25,564 nucleotides of DNA from a virus. Positions 104 through 25,564 of the stretch are shown in pieces. The position numbers and the translations under genes are program-made. Positions within the stretch are counted from its first letter, which is position 1. Every line of letters starts with the position of its first letter. The stretch is from positions 1-25,564 of IMG/VR virus record IMGVR_UViG_3300010883_018296; one strand, written 5' to 3'. The notes beneath the pieces are model-generated. The model searched no databases, was not told where the DNA came from, and worked only from the letters and a program-made list of their open reading frames with translations.

Positions 104-1069
104 TTACCATTTAAAATTTTGTTTATAATACTCTACTAATTTTGGAATTTCTTCATCAAAACTTTTTTTGTTATTCCACCCTAATGCTCTCAATTTTTCA
201 TCATTGAGAGCATAGCGAACATCTTGACCCTCTCTTACGTATGCTAAGTCAACATGTTCTACCCAATTATATTCGTTATTGAAGAAATTGTTAATCACTT
301 TTTTAACTGTGTCTTTATTTTTTTGTTGTAAGTTGCCAGCAACATTATATATTTCGTTTATTTGGCCTCTTTCTATAATTGTCACAACTGCTTCTGCTGT
401 GTCGTCTGCGTGTAACCAATTCCTAACTGGTTCCCCTGCATTGTGAAGTCTAATCTTCTTGCCCCTCTGTAGATGTTTTACAGATAGAGGTATAAGTTTT
501 TCTGGGTATTGTCCTTCTCCATAATTGTTTGTTGGGCGAAGAATGTTATATTGAATGCCGTATGTTCTTGCCCAAGCCAAGATCAGCATGTCTGCTGCTG
601 CTTTGGATGCTGAATATGGATTGCTGGGGCTTAGATGATCGGTCTCCGAGAAAGCCCCTTCGTCAATATCCCCATACACTTCATCAGTACTAAAGTGAAA
701 GAAAATCGGTTGGTTTACAATGTTGCTTGGCTTTCGTCGAATTAAATCTAAAAGATTTTTAACTCCATCAACATTTGTCCGCAAGAAATCTGTACTGTCA
801 ATAATACTATTTCCAACGTGTGATTCCGCTGCCACATTGATAACGTAATCGCAATCCGGTAAGAACTTCATATCACAAATATCTTGATTGACAAAAGTAA
901 AGTTTTCCTGCGTCATTGTATTGTAACTTCGAAACTCATAAAGAAAGTCTTCACTTGCAGCATAGGTCAAAGAATCTACGCCATAAACTCTCCAACCTCT
1001 CTCTAAACACTTGCGTGTAACATAGTTGCCTATTAATCCCAGGCAACCCGTAATTACCACTAACTTCAT
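104..1069 (-). CDS. rmlB: dTDP-glucose 4,6-dehydratase-like protein (RmlB family)
   Basis: This short-chain dehydrogenase probably converts an NDP-glucose, by family dTDP-glucose, to the 4-keto-6-deoxy sugar. It has an N-terminal NAD-binding glycine motif (GCLGLIG, residues 8-14), the RmlB signature AESHV (81-85), the catalytic T128-D129-E130 of STDEVYG, and Y152-xxx-K156. Near the end, REGQDVRYALN matches the RmlB pattern RPGHDxRYA. At 321 residues it is slightly shorter than usual RmlB (about 350). The ATG overlaps the cupin stop (TAATG) and follows AAGGGGG. Downstream enzymes for such a keto sugar are in the same operon: the DegT aminotransferase and the acetyltransferase. The substrate nucleotide is inferred; UDP-sugar dehydratases are the main alternative. 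Confidence 0.82.
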   Translation of the reverse strand: MKLVVITGCLGLIGNYVTRKCLERGWRVYGVDSLTYAASEDFLYEFRSYNTMTQENFTFVNQDICDMKFLPDCDYVINVAAESHVGNSIIDSTDFLRTNVDGVKNLLDLIRRKPSNIVNQPIFFHFSTDEVYGDIDEGAFSETDHLSPSNPYSASKAAADMLILAWARTYGIQYNILRPTNNYGEGQYPEKLIPLSVKHLQRGKKIRLHNAGEPVRNWLHADDTAEAVVTIIERGQINEIYNVAGNLQQKNKDTVKKVINNFFNNEYNWVEHVDLAYVREGQDVRYALNDEKLRALGWNNKKSFDEEIPKLVEYYKQNFKW

Positions 1070-1458
1070 TAATCCCCCTTGACGATTCGGTGTGAGTCGG
1101 AATCAAAATGTTCCGTTGAAAATTCGAACAATTCGGAATCTTCTAAAGCAATCATTTGGTGTCTAAGCCCTTGATAAATATAAAAGTTTTGTCCAGGCTC
1201 TAGTGTAATCTGCTCTGCTAAGTCGATATCATCATACTCAGAGAATTTAACTAACAGTTTCCCAGATTGCAAATAAAATACTTCGTCCTTTATCTTATGT
1301 TTATGCCAAGAACATCGCTTCCCTTTCTCAAAGAAAAGTAATTTACCACAGTACTCTTTCTTATTTACAATCCAGAGTTCATGACCCCATCCTTTCTTTA
1401 CAAACTTCATTTCTGGGGTTCTGTTTGCTGTCGGGTTATTGTTTAAAGAAATCGGCAT
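1069..1458 (-). CDS. Cupin-fold sugar isomerase/epimerase-like protein
   Basis: A 129-residue single-domain cupin. The sequence fits the cupin motif 1 spacing: G46-x5-H52-x-H54-x4-E59-x6-G, expected to bind a divalent metal. The second motif, around PGQNFYIYQGLRHQM, supplies another histidine. The region before motif 1 (GWGHELWIV) resembles small cupins related to the C-terminal domain of type II phosphomannose isomerase, common in capsule clusters. A sugar or nucleotide-sugar isomerase/epimerase role is likely; mannose-6-phosphate isomerase is only a possibility. I chose the ATG at 1458 because it follows AAGGGGG at good spacing; a GTG one codon earlier is also open. The start overlaps the HAD gene by 23 bases, suggesting coupled translation. 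Confidence 0.75.
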   Translation of the reverse strand: MPISLNNNPTANRTPEMKFVKKGWGHELWIVNKKEYCGKLLFFEKGKRCSWHKHKIKDEVFYLQSGKLLVKFSEYDDIDLAEQITLEPGQNFYIYQGLRHQMIALEDSELFEFSTEHFDSDSHRIVKGD

Positions 1459-1759
1459 CACTGACCCCCTTATCGTCTATGTATACATCTCCTGCTGGTT
1501 TCCCAAGCACTAAAAGATGATACTTGGCTCCCCATGAGTCTAATTGTTCTGCGGTCATGCTGTAAAACTCCTGTATTGCTCTGAGCGGATTGTTGTTGTA
1601 TCTTCCCATGCCTCTCGCTGTTTGATAGATTATAACGTGACCTAGGTCATATAATTCATTAATTTTTTCAATCCGCTCTTTGTTTGGTACTGATTCTGAA
1701 TAGTTGTTGTTCATTGCCTTGTCACATATTGTGCCATCAATGTCTACGACATACTTCAT
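1436..1759 (-). CDS. Small HAD-family phosphatase of glycan clusters
   Basis: A 107-residue HAD-superfamily protein without a large cap. Motif I is D6-I-D8-G-T (nucleophile and general acid), motif II is T47 in YQTARG, motif III is K87 in LGKP, and motif IV is D95-D96 in YIDDKG. It should remove phosphate from a small phosphorylated metabolite. Such short HADs occur in capsule and O-antigen clusters next to nucleotidyltransferases. Here it directly follows an RfaE2-like nucleotidyltransferase (ATGA overlap) and may act on a sugar bisphosphate such as heptose-1,7-bisphosphate, as GmhB does. It is much shorter than GmhB (about 190 residues), so that role is inference. An alternative is a sugar-acid or phosphonate phosphatase. 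Confidence 0.75.
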   Translation of the reverse strand: MKYVVDIDGTICDKAMNNNYSESVPNKERIEKINELYDLGHVIIYQTARGMGRYNNNPLRAIQEFYSMTAEQLDSWGAKYHLLVLGKPAGDVYIDDKGVSDADFFKQ

Positions 1760-2148
1760 TTTGTTGCCTCTAATATATTTGTTGTCGAATAGTTTCCAAT
1801 TCTGTCAAAGTACAGCAATTTCTTTGCTATTTCAGCGCCAACTACTGGCTTTCCTTTCCAATCAGAACCCACTATCATTATATCGATATCGTGTAACTTC
1901 AAGTTTTCCTTCAACTCCTCGTCTGTATCAAATGATACCACTTTATCAACTACTTGTAAAGACTCTAAAAAATATTTTCTATCTTCCATGCAATTGTATG
2001 GCCTTGAGTCTCCCTTTGCTTCCTTCACTCTTCTATCTGTATCGATACCAACAATTAAAAAATCTCCACTGCTTTTAGCATATGTCAATAATTCGACATG
2101 TCCTCTGTGTAGGATGTCAAAACAACCATTAACCCAAACGTTTCTCAT
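1756..2148 (-). CDS. RfaE2/TagD-like sugar-phosphate nucleotidyltransferase
   Basis: A 130-residue member of the cytidylyltransferase superfamily. The N-terminus NGCFDILHRGH (residues 7-17) carries the nucleotide-binding HxGH motif (H14-R-G-H17). GSDWKGKP and a C-terminal YSTTNIL match the RfaE domain II (heptose-1-phosphate adenylyltransferase) pattern. It likely joins a sugar 1-phosphate to AMP or CMP. I start at the ATG (2148) rather than a TTG at 2175, because the TTG would overlap the previous gene and add residues outside the domain. The ribosome binding site is weak, so translation may depend on the SDR stop 8 bases upstream. Pairing with the separate PfkB kinase (3357-4112) suggests a split HldE, as inference. 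Glycerol-3-phosphate cytidylyltransferase is the alternative. Confidence 0.8.
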   Translation of the reverse strand: MRNVWVNGCFDILHRGHVELLTYAKSSGDFLIVGIDTDRRVKEAKGDSRPYNCMEDRKYFLESLQVVDKVVSFDTDEELKENLKLHDIDIMIVGSDWKGKPVVGAEIAKKLLYFDRIGNYSTTNILEATK

Positions 2149-2156
2149 CTCACAGC

Positions 2157-3083
2157 CTAATAGTTTGCATGCCAAGGGTGATCAATAATTGAATACATTT
2201 CAATAAGTTGCTTAATACCGATATCTAAATCGTATTCACAATTATAACCAGTATTATATATTTTCTGACTGCTTACCGTATAATCTCTTTTGTCTGGATC
2301 TGTCGTAAACTCAGCTTTTATTATTTCTACTGGTAGATGACTTTGAATCTTCTGGGCTAATTGTAATTTATTCATATTAATCGCATCGTTGCCAACATTA
2401 AAAGTATCGTTCTTGAAAACACTCCAGTTATCAATGGCAAATTTAAAAGATCTGCATATATCCCATATATGCACATAATTTCTCATGAACTCACATTCAT
2501 AAAGAACCAGAACACGGTCTTTTATTGCTTTCAGCACGAAGTTGTTGACCAAAAGGTCTGTTCTAGGGCGTGTAGAAGGCCCGTAGACGGTCGCAAGACG
2601 ATAAGTACAGCAGTTCTCTGTGTTTCGGTAAACCGTCTCTGCATCGACCTTTGTGGTCCCGTAGAGGGATATGGGATTTAAAGGAAATTCTTCTGTAACA
2701 ACACTGCCTTCCGCATTAGTCCCATAACCTGAGTTGGTGCATGGGTATATGACCATTTGCTGTGACGACTTATTCTCCGCTATCCACTTGTTCGCCTCAT
2801 AGTTTATTTCTATGGCATCTTTAGGCATTCTATCGCAGAGAGGAAATCCCACTAGTGCTGCTAATGGAATTATAACGTCACATTTAGACATATACTGCTT
2901 CATAAGATTTGTATCTCGTACATCTCCTTTTATAAAATGAAAGTTATCTCTACCAACGTATCTTATAAGCGAAGTCTTGTCGTACATTAGATTGTCTATC
3001 ACAAAAACTTCATGCTCTGGTAATAAATGTTCTATCAGTTCACTTCCGATATATCCAGCGCCTCCGGTGATTAAAACTCTCAT
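2157..3083 (-). CDS. NAD-dependent sugar epimerase/dehydratase (extended SDR)
   Basis: A 308-residue extended short-chain dehydrogenase. Its Rossmann glycine motif is GGAGYIG (residues 7-13). The active-site segment PCTNSGYG (114-121) and Y141-GTT-K145 supply the Ser/Thr, Tyr and Lys. The substrate, a nucleotide sugar, cannot be read from sequence. I start at the ATG at 3083, which overlaps the previous stop (TAATG) and follows GGAAGG; an upstream extension to 3128 would put 15 residues before the fold. The position just before the RfaE2-like nucleotidyltransferase and HAD suggests it acts on the same sugar, in the place where HldD (ADP-heptose epimerase) would act. UDP-glucose 4-epimerase-like enzymes are equally possible. 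Confidence 0.8.
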   Translation of the reverse strand: MRVLITGGAGYIGSELIEHLLPEHEVFVIDNLMYDKTSLIRYVGRDNFHFIKGDVRDTNLMKQYMSKCDVIIPLAALVGFPLCDRMPKDAIEINYEANKWIAENKSSQQMVIYPCTNSGYGTNAEGSVVTEEFPLNPISLYGTTKVDAETVYRNTENCCTYRLATVYGPSTRPRTDLLVNNFVLKAIKDRVLVLYECEFMRNYVHIWDICRSFKFAIDNWSVFKNDTFNVGNDAINMNKLQLAQKIQSHLPVEIIKAEFTTDPDKRDYTVSSQKIYNTGYNCEYDLDIGIKQLIEMYSIIDHPWHANY

Positions 3084-3376
3084 TATCTTTTTACCTTCCC
3101 GATAATCATGTCTTTCAACATTATCCAATCACATATTTTTGCCAAAAGTGGTTTGCTCCAGGCAGCAGGTTTGTTTTTCTCGAAAAAAACATGTCCGGCC
3201 CAGGCGAAAGGGTATACTACAAATGGTGCCAACAACAAAGATAAAAGAGAATTGTTGTAACACCATACAATAAATAAGACAGTAGAGATTTGCCCTAATG
3301 CATGTAATCTTCTGTTCCACTTGTTTTGGTGTAGCGTTAGATAATATTCGTAATATTTATTCAGATTTTTGAACAA
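3083..3376 (-). CDS. DUF962/Mpo1-like membrane protein
   Basis: A 97-residue protein of the DUF962 (Mpo1-like) family. H16 lies in LTLHQN, N21 and H25 in NRRLHALG, and the segment AWAGHVFFEKNKPAAW (58-73) carries H62 and the family's EKNKPA signature. One or two hydrophobic stretches (about 29-38 and 44-60) predict membrane association. The yeast member Mpo1 is an iron-dependent dioxygenase in fatty-acid alpha-oxidation; the function of bacterial members is mostly unknown. The start is TTG, supported by AAGGAG six bases upstream, and it overlaps the kinase gene by 20 bases. Finding it inside a sugar-nucleotide operon of an apparent phage is unusual; a lipid or lipid-linked glycan role is speculation. 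Confidence 0.78.
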   Translation of the reverse strand: MFKNLNKYYEYYLTLHQNKWNRRLHALGQISTVLFIVWCYNNSLLSLLLAPFVVYPFAWAGHVFFEKNKPAAWSKPLLAKICDWIMLKDMIIGKVKR

Positions 3377-4112
3377 CGTTAACTCCTTTTTGCTGCACCA
3401 CTATTGTAGCACATTCATTGGCAAATATTAATGCGTCATCGACATTTTTTGTATGAAGGTACCTTGAAACAAACCCTGCGAGGAAAGTATCACCTGCACC
3501 AACTAAGTCTTTTATTTCTACTTCGTTAACAGTATAAGTTTTATTTTTATACTTACAACCTTTCGAACCCAGAGTGACAATCAAACTATCTTCATAAACA
3601 TACATTCTTTCTTGTATTTCTTTTTTAGTATTGTTATACTCTGGTTCGTTTATTTTGATCCACTTGCAATCCTCTGACCATCGGCCAAGTTTCTTTTTTG
3701 TATCCATAAACGTCAGTGGGTGGTAATAACAAATTTTTTCTATGTCAGTCTCTGACAAGAAGCCTTTATTGTAATCAGAGATAACAATCGCATCATACTG
3801 GCTAAGATATTTTTTAGTCAGCACTTTCTTGTCTACTCTCTTTATCCCGGCCTCATCAGAATCAATTCTTATAAAGATATGATTAGTCTGAGTATCCACA
3901 TATCTTGTTTTCTCAATCTCTTCTGCGTTGTGTACTATGTCACAATCAACACCTAAAGCCTTTAAATTATTAAAGACGTTAAGCGCCATTCCTCCGTTTC
4001 TTTTTTCCCGAGTTTTTACGAAAACAGGGACCGGGGCTTCGGGGGCTAATCGATTACACTTGCCGTAGACATAGACGTCTTCGCACACATCGCCTATCAC
4101 CAAGACTTTCAT
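3357..4112 (-). CDS. HldE-like PfkB-family sugar kinase (heptose kinase type)
   Basis: A 251-residue ribokinase/PfkB-family kinase. RLAPEAPVPV (residues 21-30) is close to the RISPEAPVPV signature of RfaE/HldE domain I, the D-glycero-beta-D-manno-heptose-7-phosphate kinase. The substrate-binding GG follows at 40-41, SDYNKG at 112-117, and the catalytic GAGD at 205-208 (base D208). HldE kinase domains usually have about 310-320 residues, so this is a compact version lacking the fused adenylyltransferase domain. A separate RfaE2-like protein is encoded three genes downstream. The ATG at 4112 overlaps the previous stop (TAATG); the open frame extends to a TTG at 4130, which has no better support. 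Heptose specificity is inferred from the signature only. Confidence 0.8.
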   Translation of the reverse strand: MKVLVIGDVCEDVYVYGKCNRLAPEAPVPVFVKTREKRNGGMALNVFNNLKALGVDCDIVHNAEEIEKTRYVDTQTNHIFIRIDSDEAGIKRVDKKVLTKKYLSQYDAIVISDYNKGFLSETDIEKICYYHPLTFMDTKKKLGRWSEDCKWIKINEPEYNNTKKEIQERMYVYEDSLIVTLGSKGCKYKNKTYTVNEVEIKDLVGAGDTFLAGFVSRYLHTKNVDDALIFANECATIVVQQKGVNVVQKSE

Positions 4113-4516
4113 TACCAGCTGATTTCCCAATCCTCAAAGTCTGCGGCTAAACAATCGATTTTATAGTCTTTCCGACCACCGACCACTTCTTGGATTTTAT
4201 TCTTTGCCGTATTTCTAATTCCGTTTAGGCCATGGGTCAACTCAAGATTATTACCATCTTTTATACCTTTACGATAATTTGACTCGTTATGCCAGATGTG
4301 GAGATTCATTTGTGAGAGCACAACTATTGCCCTGATTGTTTCGGCTGATACCTTTCCGTTTTGCTCATCTAGGCATAATTGTATGTCGTGTACAATATCT
4401 TGTATTTCTTGAGAATATTCCTCTTTGTGTTCTGATATAAACACCTCTTTTAGTTGCGCTATCGACAATCGATCAACCAATTCTGATAAAGTTGGCAGGT
4501 ATTTTCTATTTTTCAT
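4112..4516 (-). CDS. Conserved protein of unknown function in glycan cluster
   Basis: A 134-residue, soluble, mostly alpha-helical-looking protein. I do not recognise a characterised domain. Visible motifs are LPTLSELVDRLSI near the N-terminus, HIWHNESNYRKG in the middle, and HGLNGIRNTAKNK and DCLAADFEDW towards the C-terminus. The clustered H, N and W residues look like conserved binding positions and slightly resemble DUF4254-type proteins, but this is uncertain. The ATG overlaps the upstream epimerase gene by 11 bases, and the stop overlaps the kinase start (TAATG), so it is translationally linked to sugar-nucleotide enzymes. A role in sugar transfer or sugar-nucleotide metabolism is inferred from position only. 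Confidence 0.75.
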   Translation of the reverse strand: MKNRKYLPTLSELVDRLSIAQLKEVFISEHKEEYSQEIQDIVHDIQLCLDEQNGKVSAETIRAIVVLSQMNLHIWHNESNYRKGIKDGNNLELTHGLNGIRNTAKNKIQEVVGGRKDYKIDCLAADFEDWEISW

Positions 4517-5507
4517 TATCTAGTCTCCTTTTAATATCCTCGTAAACACACCTGAGACCCTCTGAGAGCGTGGTTTGGGCCTCCCAGCCTATCTCAGCCT
4601 TGATTTTTGAACAATCGCACCATTGGCCCCATATTAGCGTTTCTTTCGTGGTGTCATATTCAACTTCAATGTTTTTTTCAGATATATCAATAACTAAGTT
4701 TGCTATATCTTCAATTGTTACTCTAGATTGTTGTCCTACATTATACGGGCCTACGATCTGTTTGTTAACTAAATTTTCTACCATTGCTTTCGTTCCTGCA
4801 ACAGCATCATCAATATAGCAGTAGGAGCGGGTCTCCTTGCCTGTTCCCCAAACGCTAAAAGGTATAGCGGGGTGATTAATTGCTCTATTGGAGAAAACAG
4901 GTATTACTGAACCTGTCTCTAATTTGTAATCTTGATTTTTTCCATATATTCCAATGTATCTTGCAATTGCGACATTAAGTTCTGGGTTCTCGACACATGC
5001 TGCTAATATTTGTTTTTCTGCTATTAGTTTTGCCCACCCATATGTTAGTTCTGGATTCGCTGGGTATGCATGGTCTTCCTTTATTAATGGAGAGTCTGCT
5101 ACTCCTTGCAGTTCTATCGGGTAAACATGTGCAGAAGATGCATAAAAATAATACTTAATTTTATTTTTAATAACCGCATTTAAAACATTTGAGTCAATCT
5201 GCATGTTTGTGTCCATAACTTCGTATGGGTTGGATGTGTAAAACCCAATACCTCCAACCTTTGATGCAAGGTGGATCACAATATCAACGTTCTTGATTGT
5301 ATTTTCACAAAACTGTTTGTTTCTCAGGTCTTCTGTGTGCAATTCTGCTTTGTCAAGCGAGTTCCCTAGGTATTCAATCTTGCCTCTTTCAAGGTTGTCG
5401 ATTAAAACCAAATCCGACCCCTCGTTAATAAGATTTTCTACTAAGTTAGAGCCAATAAAACCAGCGGCTCCTGTTACTAACACTCTTTTATTTTTCCAGA
5501 AACTCAT
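4506..5507 (-). CDS. GDP-mannose 3,5-epimerase-like extended SDR
   Basis: A 333-residue NAD-dependent epimerase/dehydratase with the glycine motif GAAGFIG (13-19) and Y156-GWA-K160. The stretches HLASKVGGIGFYTSNP and NMQIDSNVLNA and the segment SSAHVYP resemble GDP-mannose 3,5-epimerase and the GDP-fucose synthase group. In GDP-mannose 3,5-epimerase the residue here written H127 is the catalytic Cys of SSAC; its replacement makes the exact reaction doubtful. The N-terminus MSFWKNKRVLVTG is nearly parallel to that of the preceding gene (MSYWENKKVLITG), suggesting an old tandem duplication. The ATG overlaps the fucose-synthase-like stop by 4 bases (ATGA). Best call: an epimerase/reductase on a GDP-hexose or related nucleotide sugar. 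Confidence 0.78.
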   Translation of the reverse strand: MSFWKNKRVLVTGAAGFIGSNLVENLINEGSDLVLIDNLERGKIEYLGNSLDKAELHTEDLRNKQFCENTIKNVDIVIHLASKVGGIGFYTSNPYEVMDTNMQIDSNVLNAVIKNKIKYYFYASSAHVYPIELQGVADSPLIKEDHAYPANPELTYGWAKLIAEKQILAACVENPELNVAIARYIGIYGKNQDYKLETGSVIPVFSNRAINHPAIPFSVWGTGKETRSYCYIDDAVAGTKAMVENLVNKQIVGPYNVGQQSRVTIEDIANLVIDISEKNIEVEYDTTKETLIWGQWCDCSKIKAEIGWEAQTTLSEGLRCVYEDIKRRLDNEK

Positions 5508-6460
5508 TCACCCTCTGTTCTATTATTGTTATACCAATTGATTGTTTTCTGTAGCCCTTCTTTTAAGGTCGTCGAAGGGACATAGCCAAGAGCGTTCTCG
5601 AATTTAGACATGTCATAGAATCTTCTAGGCTGTCCATCTGGTTTTGATGTATCCCAGACAATCTCTCCATTAAACTCAGTTAGTTGCCCAATTGTCTCGA
5701 CTAATTCTTTTACAGTTGTTTCGACACCTGTACCTAGATTGAAAGGGCCAGACTCATTAACTCTTTCTGCCATGTCAATAATTGCTTGTGCAGTATCTTG
5801 AGAATATAAGAACTCTCTGGAGGCTGTTCCAGTTCCCCAAACAACAACTTGTTTGTCACCTCGTTCTTTGGCCTCGATAAACTTTCTGATCAATGCTGGT
5901 ACCACATGAGACGTTTCTAGGTTAAAATTGTCATGAGGACCATATAAGTTGGCGGGCAAGAGAACAACAGAGTTAAACCCATATTGTTCCCTGTATGTCC
6001 AAGACTGGATTATGAGATTCTTTTTTGCCATAGAATAACCAATTGAGTTCTCATCGGGTAAGTCTCTCCAAAAATCCTCTTCTGAATAAGGGACTTCTAG
6101 AAGTTTTGGATAACCGCAACCTGCTGCTAATGCCACAACCTTCTCGCAACCTATACGATGGGCATGTTCTAAAACTAATGTGCCCATCATAATATTTTGG
6201 TAGAAAAAATCTCCTGGGGCTGCCTTGTTTGCTCCGATCCCGCCCACTTTGCCAGCCAAGTGTAACACTACGTCTGGTTTGTGTGTATTAAAGTAATTCT
6301 CAACTTGTATTTCTTTTGTTAGATCACAATCTTTTCGGTTGGGTACCAAAAGTTCTATGTTTTCTGTTTCTTGTTTTTTCTTGAATAGTTCAACTAGGTT
6401 ATTGCCCACGAATCCGTGGCCACCCGTTATGAGTACTTTTTTATTTTCCCAATACGACAT
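5504..6460 (-). CDS. fcl: GDP-L-fucose synthase-like epimerase/reductase
   Basis: A 318-residue SDR resembling GDP-4-keto-6-deoxymannose 3,5-epimerase-4-reductase, the last step to GDP-L-fucose. It shows GGHGFVG (13-19), the family segment HLAGKVGGIGANKAAP (67-82), C115 in GCGYP, Y142-SMA-K146, the LLPANLYGPHDNFN run, and H185 in TSHVVPAL. These match the Cys, Tyr, Lys and His of the family's active site. The usual S-S-C context is A-G-C here. The ATG follows AAGGAG and lies one base after the previous stop. A GT11 fucosyltransferase-like gene lies four genes upstream in the operon, consistent with fucose transfer. A GDP-mannose 4,6-dehydratase, needed to feed it, is not visible. Confidence 0.8.
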   Translation of the reverse strand: MSYWENKKVLITGGHGFVGNNLVELFKKKQETENIELLVPNRKDCDLTKEIQVENYFNTHKPDVVLHLAGKVGGIGANKAAPGDFFYQNIMMGTLVLEHAHRIGCEKVVALAAGCGYPKLLEVPYSEEDFWRDLPDENSIGYSMAKKNLIIQSWTYREQYGFNSVVLLPANLYGPHDNFNLETSHVVPALIRKFIEAKERGDKQVVVWGTGTASREFLYSQDTAQAIIDMAERVNESGPFNLGTGVETTVKELVETIGQLTEFNGEIVWDTSKPDGQPRRFYDMSKFENALGYVPSTTLKEGLQKTINWYNNNRTEGE

Positions 6461-7516: not shown

Positions 7517-8214
7517 TTGCACCACATCATTCCGTAGTTTACTCTCCTGGCGTGATCTACGAACACATCCATTTCTTTTTTGATTAGTTCCCATTCAAAA
7601 TATTTTCTTGGTTGCGTAAGATATGGGTCACCACTTCTATTAAAAGTGCATCTTTCAAAAATGTCACCCTCATCAAAAAACCCAATAATTCCAAACTCCT
7701 GATATCCAATACTTTGTAAATGCTCTACTGTTTGTTTTAAGTCATCATATGCTTCTTCATGCCATTCGAAACAGATCATACCAGATTTCTTGCTTAATCC
7801 CTGTAGGACTTCTTTCTCGTAACCCTCAACATCAACCTTTATTAAACAAGGATCTCCATAGTCTTCTATCATCTTATCCAATGTTATTGTTTTTACTTTT
7901 CTAGGAGGAAGCCATCGACCACATTTTGCGTCTTCAATATACTTACTCCCCTTTGCAAATCTTGAATTTTTTACGTAATCCTTCGAAGCGGTCGAGATTC
8001 CTGTCTGCCATGGATCAACGTAAAAATCTATCTTTAAGTCTGCAACGTTAGAAGCGGCACGGTTTAACAAAGTTAACCTAGGATGACTTGCATTTACTTC
8101 GATAAGAAGAGATGAGTTTGCCTCAACAGCAACAACTTCACATTCATCGTGCCTCAGAAGAATCGCTGTTGTGAACTCTCCTGTGTTAAAACCTATATCA
8201 AAAACTAATTTCAT
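7513..8214 (-). CDS. FkbM-family SAM-dependent methyltransferase
   Basis: A 233-residue methyltransferase. The SAM-binding motif is FDIGFNTGEFT (residues 5-15), followed by the acidic motif VAVEANSS. The FkbM signature TLDKMIEDYG...LIKVDVEGYEKEVLQGL, in the middle, marks the family. These enzymes O-methylate sugars and are frequent in glycan clusters. The ATG overlaps the fucosyltransferase stop by 4 bases (ATGA). Together with the second methyltransferase gene in this operon it suggests that the finished glycan is methylated. The acceptor is unknown. Confidence 0.85.
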   Translation of the reverse strand: MKLVFDIGFNTGEFTTAILLRHDECEVVAVEANSSLLIEVNASHPRLTLLNRAASNVADLKIDFYVDPWQTGISTASKDYVKNSRFAKGSKYIEDAKCGRWLPPRKVKTITLDKMIEDYGDPCLIKVDVEGYEKEVLQGLSKKSGMICFEWHEEAYDDLKQTVEHLQSIGYQEFGIIGFFDEGDIFERCTFNRSGDPYLTQPRKYFEWELIKKEMDVFVDHARRVNYGMMWCK

Positions 8215-9098
8215 ACTAATGTCCAGTCTGTGGGATAAAATCCCGGTCTGTAAGTCATATCGAGTCTATCTGGGTGATAGTGCATTGGAGCGATCACCTT
8301 TTTGTCTTTGTTTGGGTTAAGATACGCTGCCCACCAACCAAAACTACTTACATGACTTATTATATTATAATCACAAGAAATTATTAAGGAAAAATCTTCA
8401 ATTGTACCCCTTCCTTCTGAAAAAATAAAATGATCTCCAACAAAGTTTCTCTTGCACCACTCTATATCGTTGCTGTTGTCTCCATCACCCCTCTTACCTC
8501 CTGTAAAGATTAAGTATTTTACTTTTTCTCCAGACAACTGTTGTGTTGCCTTCTTATAATATTTGTAATAAAGACTATCTTCTTCTAAAGATTCGCCACC
8601 GTAGGAGTTGTTTACTTCAACCTGTTTCGTATCTGTGTTGTCGGTGTTATCGCCTCTTCGAAGATGCAGGGAAACTATTTTATATCCTGGATGTAGTTTT
8701 TTTAGCCGGTTTATCTCCTCTCTTGCTGCGTCCATAAACTCTTTCTTGGGAGTAAGTTCTTTCTTGATCTGTTCCTCGTGGCCTTTGAAGTAAAAGGTGC
8801 TTTGAAAAAAGCCTGATATATTTGTGTCGTCCGGTATCTCGTAGAACCAACTATCATATTGCATGTAGTTCTGTTCTTCGTATTGATGCTTAAAAGTGGT
8901 TATATCCTCAGAGGTTAATATTTTTGCTTCTACACTAAGGTCTCCCAGCAAACACACTTGCCCATGCCACGCTCTTGATTGGGGATCAGGGATTTTTACT
9001 TCATATCCTCTTTCCAAACTCAGTGCACGGAGTGCTGCATACTGAAAAAGTTGGTTTCCTAAACGTCCAAGTTCTCCTAATTGATAGAAAGTAATCAT
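8211..9098 (-). CDS. GT11 alpha-1,2-fucosyltransferase-like protein
   Basis: A 295-residue GT11-family glycosyltransferase. The N-terminal GRLGNQLFQYAA (residues 11-22) and the donor-binding HLRRGD (145-150) are hallmark motifs. The third motif, SHVSSFGWWAAYLN, near the C-terminus completes the family pattern. GT11 members use GDP-L-fucose and usually make alpha-1,2 linkages. A GDP-L-fucose-synthase-like gene is in the same operon, which supports this donor. The length is typical of bacterial GT11 proteins. The ATG at 9098 lies one base after the preceding stop. Confidence 0.9.
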   Translation of the reverse strand: MITFYQLGELGRLGNQLFQYAALRALSLERGYEVKIPDPQSRAWHGQVCLLGDLSVEAKILTSEDITTFKHQYEEQNYMQYDSWFYEIPDDTNISGFFQSTFYFKGHEEQIKKELTPKKEFMDAAREEINRLKKLHPGYKIVSLHLRRGDNTDNTDTKQVEVNNSYGGESLEEDSLYYKYYKKATQQLSGEKVKYLIFTGGKRGDGDNSNDIEWCKRNFVGDHFIFSEGRGTIEDFSLIISCDYNIISHVSSFGWWAAYLNPNKDKKVIAPMHYHPDRLDMTYRPGFYPTDWTLV

Positions 9099-24190: not shown

Positions 24191-24215
24191 GTCAGAAGGA
24201 GGTTGGACTTTTGAC
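24191..24215 (+). other. Hairpin presenting a Shine-Dalgarno-like loop
   Basis: GTCAGAAG and CTTTTGAC form an 8-base stem (one G-U pair) around the loop GAGGTTGGA. The AAGGAGG at 24196-24202 straddles stem and loop. A U tract after the stem is absent, so it is unlikely to be an intrinsic terminator. It fits an RNA switch or protein-binding site in the leader of the following gene. Confidence 0.4.
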
Positions 24216-24252
24216 ACTTAAAAATAATATAATTTTACGGAGTTATGTATGA
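24211..24252 (+). other. Possible 13-residue leader peptide, TTG start
   Basis: A TTG eight bases after AAGGAGG opens a 13-codon frame (MTLKNNIILRSYV) whose TGA overlaps the ATG of the next gene (ATGA). Both the strong ribosome binding site and the exact overlap argue for use, perhaps to couple translation; the short length and TTG start argue for caution. Confidence 0.3.
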
Positions 24253-24422
24253 GTGAAGATGTGAAGCAGGGAAAGCCTTGGAAGAATAGCCGCCCTTTTG
24301 CAACATATGAAGAGGCAGACGTTCATCGATTAGAAATTCTTTCAGATCCTTCTAAAGAGGTTAAGGTAAAGAAAAGAGAGGGTGGACGTTTTGTTGTAAA
24401 ATCCAGGACTAAGAAAGACTAA
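24249..24422 (+). CDS. Small basic phage protein, paralogue of 25203-25394
   Basis: A 57-residue protein from an ATG that follows GGAG by six bases. It contains FATYEEADVHRLEILSD and ends in GGRFVVKSRTKKD. The small protein at 25203-25394 shares the order F-x-T-Y-x-x-A, then G-x-F-x-V and a basic end, so the two are probably paralogues flanking the phosphomannomutase gene. I recall similar small proteins in T4-like phages. Function unknown; a small alpha/beta fold is likely. Confidence 0.75.
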   Translation: MSEDVKQGKPWKNSRPFATYEEADVHRLEILSDPSKEVKVKKREGGRFVVKSRTKKD

Positions 24423-24424
24423 AA

Positions 24425-25219
24425 ATGAGTTGGAACTTAGATAATCCAGTACCAAGGGACATTGTTTTTATATTTGATGTAGATGGTACCCTAACCCCTG
24501 CCAGAAAAAGTATAACACCAGAATTCTGTAAGTTTTTTGAAGAATGGATCACAGGAAAAGAAGTATATCTCGCTTCTGGTTCAGACATGTCAAAACTAAG
24601 AGAGCAATTACCAGAAGGTATCTTGCATGGAGTTAAAGGTGTGTATGCGAGTTGTGGCAATGAATACTATGTTAAGGATAATATATTCTATAAAAACAAT
24701 TTTGAACCTCCGGGAGAACTAGTTCTGATGTTGAATGATCACATCAATAATAAAAGCGAATATCAGAAAAGGTACGGCAATCATATTGAGCATAGATCGG
24801 GAATGTTAAACTTTTCAGTTGTTGGAAGAAACGCCCCGGACGAAGAAAGACTTAAGTATTATAAATGGGATTTCACCGCTAAAGAGAGAGAAGCATTAGC
24901 ACGTCAAATAGAGAGTATGTTCCCTGATATCGAAGCCACTGTTGGTGGTCAAATAAGCATTGATATATATCCTAAAGGCAAAGACAAATCTCAAATCTTA
25001 AAAGATTTAAATTATAATAGGTATGTTTTTTTCGGAGATAAACAACAACCGGGTGGGAATGACCATTCTCTTGCAATGGCAATTAGTAAGAAAGACCGAT
25101 TTAATACCCACAATGTAAAAGGGTATAAAGATACTTGGAAGACCCTAAAGGGCTTATATCTAGGTAAAATATGTGAAAATGAAAATTGTGGAGGGTGTGG
25201 TTGTGTCGAATATCAATGA
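24425..25219 (+). CDS. Eukaryotic-type phosphomannomutase (HAD superfamily)
   Basis: A 264-residue protein of the eukaryotic-type phosphomannomutase group, which converts mannose-6-phosphate to mannose-1-phosphate. Evidence: FDVDGTLTPAR (17-27) with nucleophile D18 and acid D20; the ASGSD motif; cap-domain HRSGMLNFSVVGRNAPDEER; GGQISIDIYPKGKDK; and FFGDK followed by PGGNDH for magnesium binding. This is unrelated to bacterial ManB/AlgC. The C-terminus carries an extra ENENCGGCGC segment not usual in the family. The ATG is two bases after the preceding stop. Product use is probably GDP-mannose, the precursor of GDP-fucose needed by the GT11 enzyme on the other strand; no GDP-mannose pyrophosphorylase is visible. 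Confidence 0.88.
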   Translation: MSWNLDNPVPRDIVFIFDVDGTLTPARKSITPEFCKFFEEWITGKEVYLASGSDMSKLREQLPEGILHGVKGVYASCGNEYYVKDNIFYKNNFEPPGELVLMLNDHINNKSEYQKRYGNHIEHRSGMLNFSVVGRNAPDEERLKYYKWDFTAKEREALARQIESMFPDIEATVGGQISIDIYPKGKDKSQILKDLNYNRYVFFGDKQQPGGNDHSLAMAISKKDRFNTHNVKGYKDTWKTLKGLYLGKICENENCGGCGCVEYQ

Positions 25220-25394
25220 GAGTGACGTGATGGAAATAGCAAAATTTAAAACTTATCAGCAAGCATTTATAGAAGTTAAACAAATACTTGAAATGTCTGC
25301 TGATATGTCTTCGGAATTTGCAGCACTTCCAAAGATAACAAAAGAAGATGATGGTTGGTTTCTTGTCACTCTATCTGTTAGGAAAAGAAAATAA
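25203..25394 (+). CDS. Small phage protein, paralogue of 24249-24422
   Basis: A 63-residue protein starting at a GTG at 25203, which follows GGAGG eight bases upstream and overlaps the phosphomannomutase end by 17 bases. An ATG at 25230 is a shorter alternative with a poorer site. FKTYQQAFIEVKQIL and GWFLVTLSVRKRK parallel the other small protein. Function unknown. Confidence 0.65.
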   Translation: MSNINESDVMEIAKFKTYQQAFIEVKQILEMSADMSSEFAALPKITKEDDGWFLVTLSVRKRK

Positions 25395-25398
25395 AAGG

Positions 25399-25427
25399 TT
25401 GACATTTATGTATGCTTGGGGTATAAT
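25399..25427 (+). promoter_or_regulatory. Consensus sigma70 promoter for the tRNA genes
   Basis: TTGACA at 25399-25404 and TATAAT at 25422-25427 are separated by 17 bases, the ideal bacterial sigma70 spacing with no mismatch. A transcript would begin near 25434, at most a few bases before the tRNA-Arg 5' end (25436). This is the clearest promoter in the window and suggests expression by unmodified host polymerase. Confidence 0.88.
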
Positions 25428-25435
25428 GTGTTTAT

Positions 25436-25512
<77 letters not shown>

Positions 25513-25515
25513 TAT

Positions 25516-25564
25516 GCCTCTTTAGCTCAGTTGGTAGAGCAGTTGATTTGTAATCAGCAGGTCG
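25516..25564 (+). tRNA. tRNA-Thr (anticodon TGT), cut by window end
   Basis: The first 49 bases of a tRNA three bases after the previous one. Acceptor 5' arm GCCTCTT, D stem GCTC/GAGC, anticodon stem GTTGA/TCAGC (one T-G pair) and loop TTTGTAA give anticodon TGT (threonine, ACA). The T arm and acceptor 3' side lie beyond the edge. It probably shares the promoter of the preceding tRNA. Confidence 0.88.

Follow-up and report, generated by a model that had tools for sequence, protein, structure and literature searches.

A phage-borne member of the PMM1/PMM2 family, predicted to be an alpha-phosphomannomutase for glycan synthesis

Introduction

A viral DNA fragment rich in sugar genes carries near its end an open reading frame that resembles a protein family named after eukaryotes. 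The fragment, called the window below, is the whole analysed stretch of 25,564 nucleotides from IMG/VR record IMGVR_UViG_3300010883_018296. An island of glycosyltransferase and nucleotide-sugar genes occupies 0.1–17 kb of the window, on the strand opposite this reading frame. The locus raises the question of which reaction the encoded protein catalyzes, which sugar it serves, and whether it is of eukaryotic origin. A preliminary description proposed a eukaryotic-type phosphomannomutase (PMM) supplying GDP-mannose/GDP-fucose synthesis.

The Gene and Its Surroundings

The gene is intact (Table 1), and the motif series of the preliminary description was recovered in full: DVDGTLTPAR, which forms residues 18–27, HRSGMLNFSV, GGQIS, and PGGNDH are all present. 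The 57-aa reading frame 2 bp upstream matches nothing in Pfam or PHROG and is probably on the same transcript as the PMM gene. The promoter candidate ahead of the two is a consensus match alone, and 20 sites were found in the 3.2-kb region versus 12.8 expected by chance. The start of the 63-aa reading frame was taken from direct reading; the program's list of reading frames begins this region at GTG 25173. Paralogy between the small proteins on either side of PMM was not upheld, as BLASTP gave no alignment between them even at E ≤ 100. A stretch F-x-T-Y-x-x-A common to both was noticed by eye. The proximity of the gene to tRNAs was borne out. Behind the tRNA-Arg gene lies a second tRNA-like gene (25515–25564; anticodon TGT by eye), cut off by the window end, which is probably a tRNA-Thr.

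Table 1. Features of the window mentioned in the text
Feature	Position	Strand	Details
Cupin	1069..1461	-	Cupin_2, 29.5 bits
rfaE domain II/TagD-like nucleotidyltransferase	1756..2175	-	NCBIfam TIGR02199, 107 bits, below the 181.5 cut-off
rfaE domain I-like sugar kinase	3357..4130	-	TIGR02198, 124 bits, below cut-off
GDP-L-fucose-synthase-like reductase/epimerase	5504..6460	-	NF047922, 289 bits, below the 500-bit cut-off
Glycosyltransferase family 11 (GT11; alpha-1,2-fucosyltransferase family)	8211..9098	-	PF01531, 80 bits, cut-off 23.9
Sigma-70-like promoter candidate	24204..24233	+	TGGACT-18-TATAAT, 10/12
57-aa ORF	24249..24422	+	2 bp upstream of PMM
PMM ORF	24425..25219	+	ATG 24425, stop ends 25219, 264 aa
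63-aa ORF	25203..25394	+	GTG start after GGAGG; 17-bp overlap with the PMM 3' end
Promoter-like site before tRNA genes	25399..25427	+	Perfect TTGACA-17-TATAAT, 12/12
tRNA-Arg (TCT), complete	25436..25512	+	ARAGORN

Family, Fold, and Active Site

The window protein matches the Pfam family PF03332 ("Eukaryotic phosphomannomutase") with 103.3 bits (E = 2.2e-29; Pfam cut-off 22.4). The next Pfam family is Hydrolase_3, with 34.2 bits, and HAD-IIB models match weakly. A phmmer search of the PDB returned 15 PMM1/PMM2-type sequences at 1e-26 to 3e-31 and then only 4bnd, at 1e-8. The AlphaFold model, built from 74 homologues (pLDDT 92, pTM 0.86), contains the C2b cap and the HAD core, and the top 22 rows of its Foldseek comparison with the PDB are all of the PMM1/PMM2 type (TM 0.66–0.80 by query), followed again by 4bnd. 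Fold E-values in this comparison are 1e-23 for PMM versus 1e-9 or weaker for TPP/SPP/Cof-type enzymes. Trehalose- and sucrose-phosphate phosphatases, named earlier as examples of groups that would refute the assignment, were rejected on this distance and on the lack of any TPP or SPP Pfam match. The separation from bacterial ManB/AlgC also stands: the window protein has no PGM_PMM domain match, and those enzymes (PF02878–PF00408), for which the same product is expected, have an unrelated fold. Sequence and model together lead to the prediction that the gene encodes a HAD-IIB (C2b cap) alpha-phosphomannomutase of the human PMM2 family.

With the solved PMM1/PMM2 enzymes (PF03332; PDB 2fue, 2amy, 2i54), the window protein shares the full-length fold, the DxDGT nucleophile/acid pair, all cap arginines, the GGQISxD sugar site, and the GDxxxxGGND metal site. 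It differs in being only about 30–34% identical to them, in belonging to a separate clade whose members occur in phages and bacteria, and in a C-terminal tail, CENENCGGCGC, of its own. This tail (25160–25219) is Cys-rich, unstructured in the AlphaFold model, and seen in no other homologue fetched; at the DNA level, it shares bases with the ribosome-binding site and the start of the reading frame that follows.

Alignment with the solved enzymes identifies D18 as the nucleophile and D20 as the acid/base, with R27, R124, R135, R142, S178, and D180 in the sugar-phosphate site and K188, D205, N212, and D213 in the phosphate/Mg2+ site. The six sugar-site residues correspond to R21, R123, R134, R141, S179, and D181 of PMM2, and the roles of all of them are presumably those established for PMM1/PMM2. 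Every catalytic and phosphosugar-binding residue tested is present. Gaps in truncated rows aside, D18, D20, R124, N129, R135, R142, D180, K188, D205, N212, and D213 are invariant in 148 viral sequences, in the covered bacterial and archaeal sequences (80 in total), and in six eukaryotic ones, while R27 is kept in 147/148, 79/80, and 6/6, respectively. The exception is the sugar-site Ser, which is replaced by Gly in 127 of the 148 viral homologues (e.g., L010, L027, L002, and L003); 21 viral rows, like the window protein, retain it. This replacement suggests a changed specificity in the Gly-type branch, whose substrate may be shifted.

The nearest structure outside the PMM group, the Lactococcus alpha-phosphoglucomutase 4bnd, and its Acinetobacter phage homologues have the same cap class, DxDGT, and GGND. 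However, 4bnd is 22% identical to the window protein over the fold match, and its group forms a separate clade (100/99) with K/C, T/A, and K at positions 27, 129, and 142, where the window has R27, N129, and R142; R135 is also replaced in three of the five members. Membership of the window protein in this group was therefore rejected.

Cellular Relatives

The cellular relatives, 37–47% identical to the window protein, come from Marinimicrobia, Holosporaceae and other alphaproteobacteria, Elusimicrobia, and Hyphomicrobiales, some of them little-known bacteria, and from Asgard archaea (Lokiarchaeota). Identity to the window protein stays at or below 48% throughout the alignment. In alphaproteobacterial homologues, a type II mannose-6-phosphate isomerase (MPI, PF01050, 86–100 bits) is followed by PMM (PF03332, 101–114 bits) in one chain, with both scores above the curated cut-offs; the N-terminal extension is found in 13 cases. 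The PMM domain of these fusions, found in Holosporaceae and other alphaproteobacteria, has the same active site and is about 37–44% identical to the window protein, which in contrast consists of PMM alone, with no PF01050 isomerase in the window. A ManC-type GDP-mannose pyrophosphorylase adjoins the Lokiarchaeal, Rickettsiaceae, and Sutterella copies, and GMD and GDP-fucose synthase adjoin PMM in other cellular loci. The fusion and these neighbours imply that the step catalyzed by the family in those cells is the conversion of mannose-6-phosphate to mannose-1-phosphate.

The Sugar Island

The role in GDP-mannose/GDP-fucose synthesis suggested earlier is plausible, given the GDP-L-fucose-synthase-like reductase and the GT11 gene of the window. 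However, the complete set for this pathway (MPI, ManC, GMD, and GDP-fucose synthase) is not encoded in the 25.6-kb fragment: the window contains neither PF01050 nor PF00483 (ManC/NTP_transferase) and no GMD above cut-off, the best match to the GMD model being a dTDP-glucose-dehydratase-like protein with 51 bits versus 415. The phage may encode MPI, ManC, and GMD outside this fragment. The cupin was considered as a mannose-6-phosphate isomerase and rejected, as it has no PF01050 match. Its homologues, in 35 phage records at 55–68% identity, belong to T4-like cyanophages and adjoin phosphoheptose isomerase and nucleotidyltransferase genes. Some carry the annotation nucleotidyltransferase and others cysteine dioxygenase.

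A run of about 20 window genes, starting at the dTDP-glucose-dehydratase-like gene and ending at PhoH, is collinear with part of a 154.9-kb viral contig (IMGVR_UViG_3300020165_000008), with most genes 35–84% identical. On this contig the sugar island ends with PMM, which is encoded on the strand of PhoH and separated from it by about 340 bp. In a second relative, PMM is found near ClpP and PhoH, and a GMD above cut-off is located elsewhere on the contig. These positions indicate that PMM travels with the sugar island of this lineage, and the earlier statement that it moves with phage genes is upheld. The collinear contig keeps PMM without any match to the window GT11 gene and with only a 27% match to the GDP-fucose-synthase-like gene. 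The conserved core of the island looks like a heptose-type cassette, with an rfaE-like kinase, a nucleotidyltransferase, and a cupin of the kind found beside phosphoheptose isomerase. Consequently, the sugar may not be mannose. In view of this core, the weak reductase match, and the lack of GT11 in the relative, the fucose reading is possible only.

Predicted Function and Alternatives

The preferred reading, with a probability of roughly three in four, is a phage-borne HAD-superfamily alpha-phosphomannomutase that supplies mannose-1-phosphate for NDP-mannose-type sugars of the phage's glycan genes. In the proposed mechanism, Asp18 would be phosphorylated from hexose-1,6-bisphosphate, as in PMM1/PMM2, and phosphate would then be passed between C6 and C1 of mannose-phosphate to give mannose-1-phosphate. 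Mannose-1-phosphate is the likely product and would be a precursor of some NDP-sugar for the glycan genes on the other strand. Mannose as the substrate, mutase over phosphatase activity, and the end product are what we infer from the family and its genomic context.

An unlikely alternative is that the enzyme works by this mechanism on another phosphosugar, derived from either glucose or a heptose made by the island kinase, and feeds the rfaE-like nucleotidyltransferase of the island. In the window and in most phages, the nucleotidyltransferase adjacent to or co-carried with PMM is indeed of the rfaE domain II/glycerol-3-phosphate cytidylyltransferase type, and the conserved island genes are heptose-like. 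A study on T. brucei describes a PMM that substitutes for phosphoglucomutase (PMC3465800), and the prevalence of Gly at the sugar site points the same way for most viral copies. The window protein, however, retains Ser and all other PMM residues, and the bacterial relatives of the Ser type are fused to mannose-6-phosphate isomerase, which argues for mannose there. In addition, heptose-1-phosphate from the kinase would need no mutase.

Phosphatases occur among the HAD-IIB relatives, and human PMM1 is also a hexose-bisphosphatase, an activity seen when it is stimulated by IMP. Together with the weak Hydrolase_3 and HAD-IIB matches, this allows a phosphatase acting on a sugar phosphate or hexose bisphosphate, perhaps starving a host pathway or draining the bisphosphate. 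Such a function is considered very improbable, because the PMM model and PMM structures are far ahead, all 148 viral copies keep the cap arginines responsible for binding the second phosphate, and the fusion and operons place the family between MPI and GMD.

Origin and Distribution

A maximum-likelihood tree rooted on alpha-phosphoglucomutases separates a clade of eukaryotic PMMs (support 100/99) from a clade of phage, bacterial, and Loki copies (99/96). The tree sample includes six eukaryotic sequences, and its bacterial rows were retrieved with patterns derived from phage proteins. The window protein stands among the deep branches of the second clade, with phage, Marinimicrobia, Hyphomicrobiales, and Loki copies; its exact sister is placed only tentatively (93/59). 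Judged by sequence, it belongs to the prokaryotic/viral branch of the family. The term "eukaryotic-type" is thus right for the family (PF03332, PMM1/PMM2) and wrong for the ancestry. Capture of the gene from a eukaryote, suggested by the family name, the motif resemblance, and a list of best solved relatives that is biased because solved PMM structures are nearly all eukaryotic, can practically be set aside, since the gene lies outside the eukaryotic clade and a joint clade with the six eukaryotic sequences was rejected (AU p = 0.019).

Relatives occur in more than 500 IMG/VR contigs, among 600 candidate stretches listed. A single-sequence query of viral contigs gave no match, and the relatives were found with an alignment query. 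The cyanophages S-SSM7 (43%) and P-TIM68 (41%) encode copies annotated as "hypothetical protein", and the window protein matches PHROG 29277, a family of unknown function, over nearly its whole length (218 bits). Unlike the window protein, the PHROG 29277, S-SSM7, and P-TIM68 copies have Gly at the sugar-site Ser and HGND or GQND for GGND. A general coupling of phage PMM to GMD was ruled out: a GMD-like protein of full score was present in only 3 of 51 PMM phage records and in neither of the complete genomes of S-SSM7 and P-TIM68.

Human-gut and Acinetobacter-phage matches were discarded as PMMs, being alpha-phosphoglucomutase-like. The Acinetobacter phage proteins (L004:2523-3741 and L007:3989-4738) are HAD proteins of this type. 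In phage Ab1-TPeters, such a gene directly follows one annotated "heptose kinase/heptose 1-phosphate adenylyltransferase", which is the same pairing of mutase and nucleotidyltransferase in a different subfamily. Two gut scaffolds deposited as "Bacteriophage sp." (MT837373 and MT835687; L005 and L006) carry transport, efflux, and phosphoribosyltransferase-like genes and look like pieces of bacterial chromosome rather than phage.

A Candidate Partner Nucleotidyltransferase

The commonest neighbour of phage PMM, on the same strand and within 600 bp, is a CTP_transf_like protein of about 140 aa (22 of 55 distinct viral loci). Of 80 bacterial and archaeal loci, 27 have a related nucleotidyltransferase next to PMM. 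These 27 loci include MPI in 19 cases, GMD in 14, and ManC in none, versus 1, 1, and 5, respectively, in the 53 loci without it. The order in alphaproteobacterium RUI108 (L255:1252-3821) is [MPI-PMM]-[nucleotidyltransferase]-[GMD], with a 4-bp overlap of the first two genes, and the sole NTP_transferase match in this draft genome, 446 aa long, resembles GlmU. Examples of the partner enzyme are L255 2352-2780 and L068 4999-5415. The fusion and the small HxGH nucleotidyltransferase, often with GMD, also occur in L118, L119, L151, and L089.

In 15 alphaproteobacterial draft genomes searched with TIGR01479, no ManC domain was found, the isomerase part being matched alone, and GMD scored above cut-off in 11 of 21 genomes searched. 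All of these genomes hold PF00483 proteins of other kinds, and in some of them MurU/HddC-like enzymes could substitute for ManC. Because of these proteins and the draft state of the genomes, replacement of ManC by the small nucleotidyltransferase is treated as a lead. Accordingly, it is proposed tentatively, at somewhat less than even odds, that the prokaryotic/viral alpha-PMM and the CTP_transf_like (HxGH) nucleotidyltransferase of about 140 aa form a two-gene cassette converting mannose-1-phosphate to NDP-mannose without ManC. The small enzyme may be an unrecognized mannose-1-phosphate nucleotidyltransferase, standing at the place expected for ManC in bacteria.

In phages, the rfaE/TagD-like nucleotidyltransferase beside PMM is found almost only in the Gly branch (16/43 versus 1/10). 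The nearest such gene of the window (Table 1) scores 74 bits against a profile of the PMM-adjacent phage nucleotidyltransferases and belongs to the same fold family. The S-SSM7 "NAD synthetase" near PMM was also considered as a partner and rejected, its sequence being unlike a nucleotidyltransferase.

Implications

The enzyme class is known, whereas its phage branch has apparently gone unrecognized: no phage phosphomannomutase of the HAD fold was found in the literature, within an incomplete coverage. Viral manA has been found in ocean viromes, with 816 reads versus 3,379 for psbA (PMC4053976), and viral mannose-6-phosphate isomerase has been read as serving mannose breakdown for dNTP supply (PMC4053976, PMC9602691). 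Cyanophage genes for GDP-mannose and GDP-fucose have been described in the same sources. The joint presence of the type II isomerase and PMM in 5 of the 28 PMM-bearing phage records searched fits the opposite direction, sugar-nucleotide synthesis.

A phage PMM points to a route of this kind. A widespread phage family so far called "hypothetical", represented by PHROG 29277 and by hundreds of IMG/VR contigs, thereby acquires a function that can be tested. For this PMM fold, the analysis also corrects the label "eukaryotic". In bacteria, the analysis exposes bifunctional MPI-PMM proteins together with a candidate substitute for ManC, so that MPI-PMM and the small HxGH nucleotidyltransferase, with or without GMD, constitute a candidate ManC-independent route to GDP-mannose.
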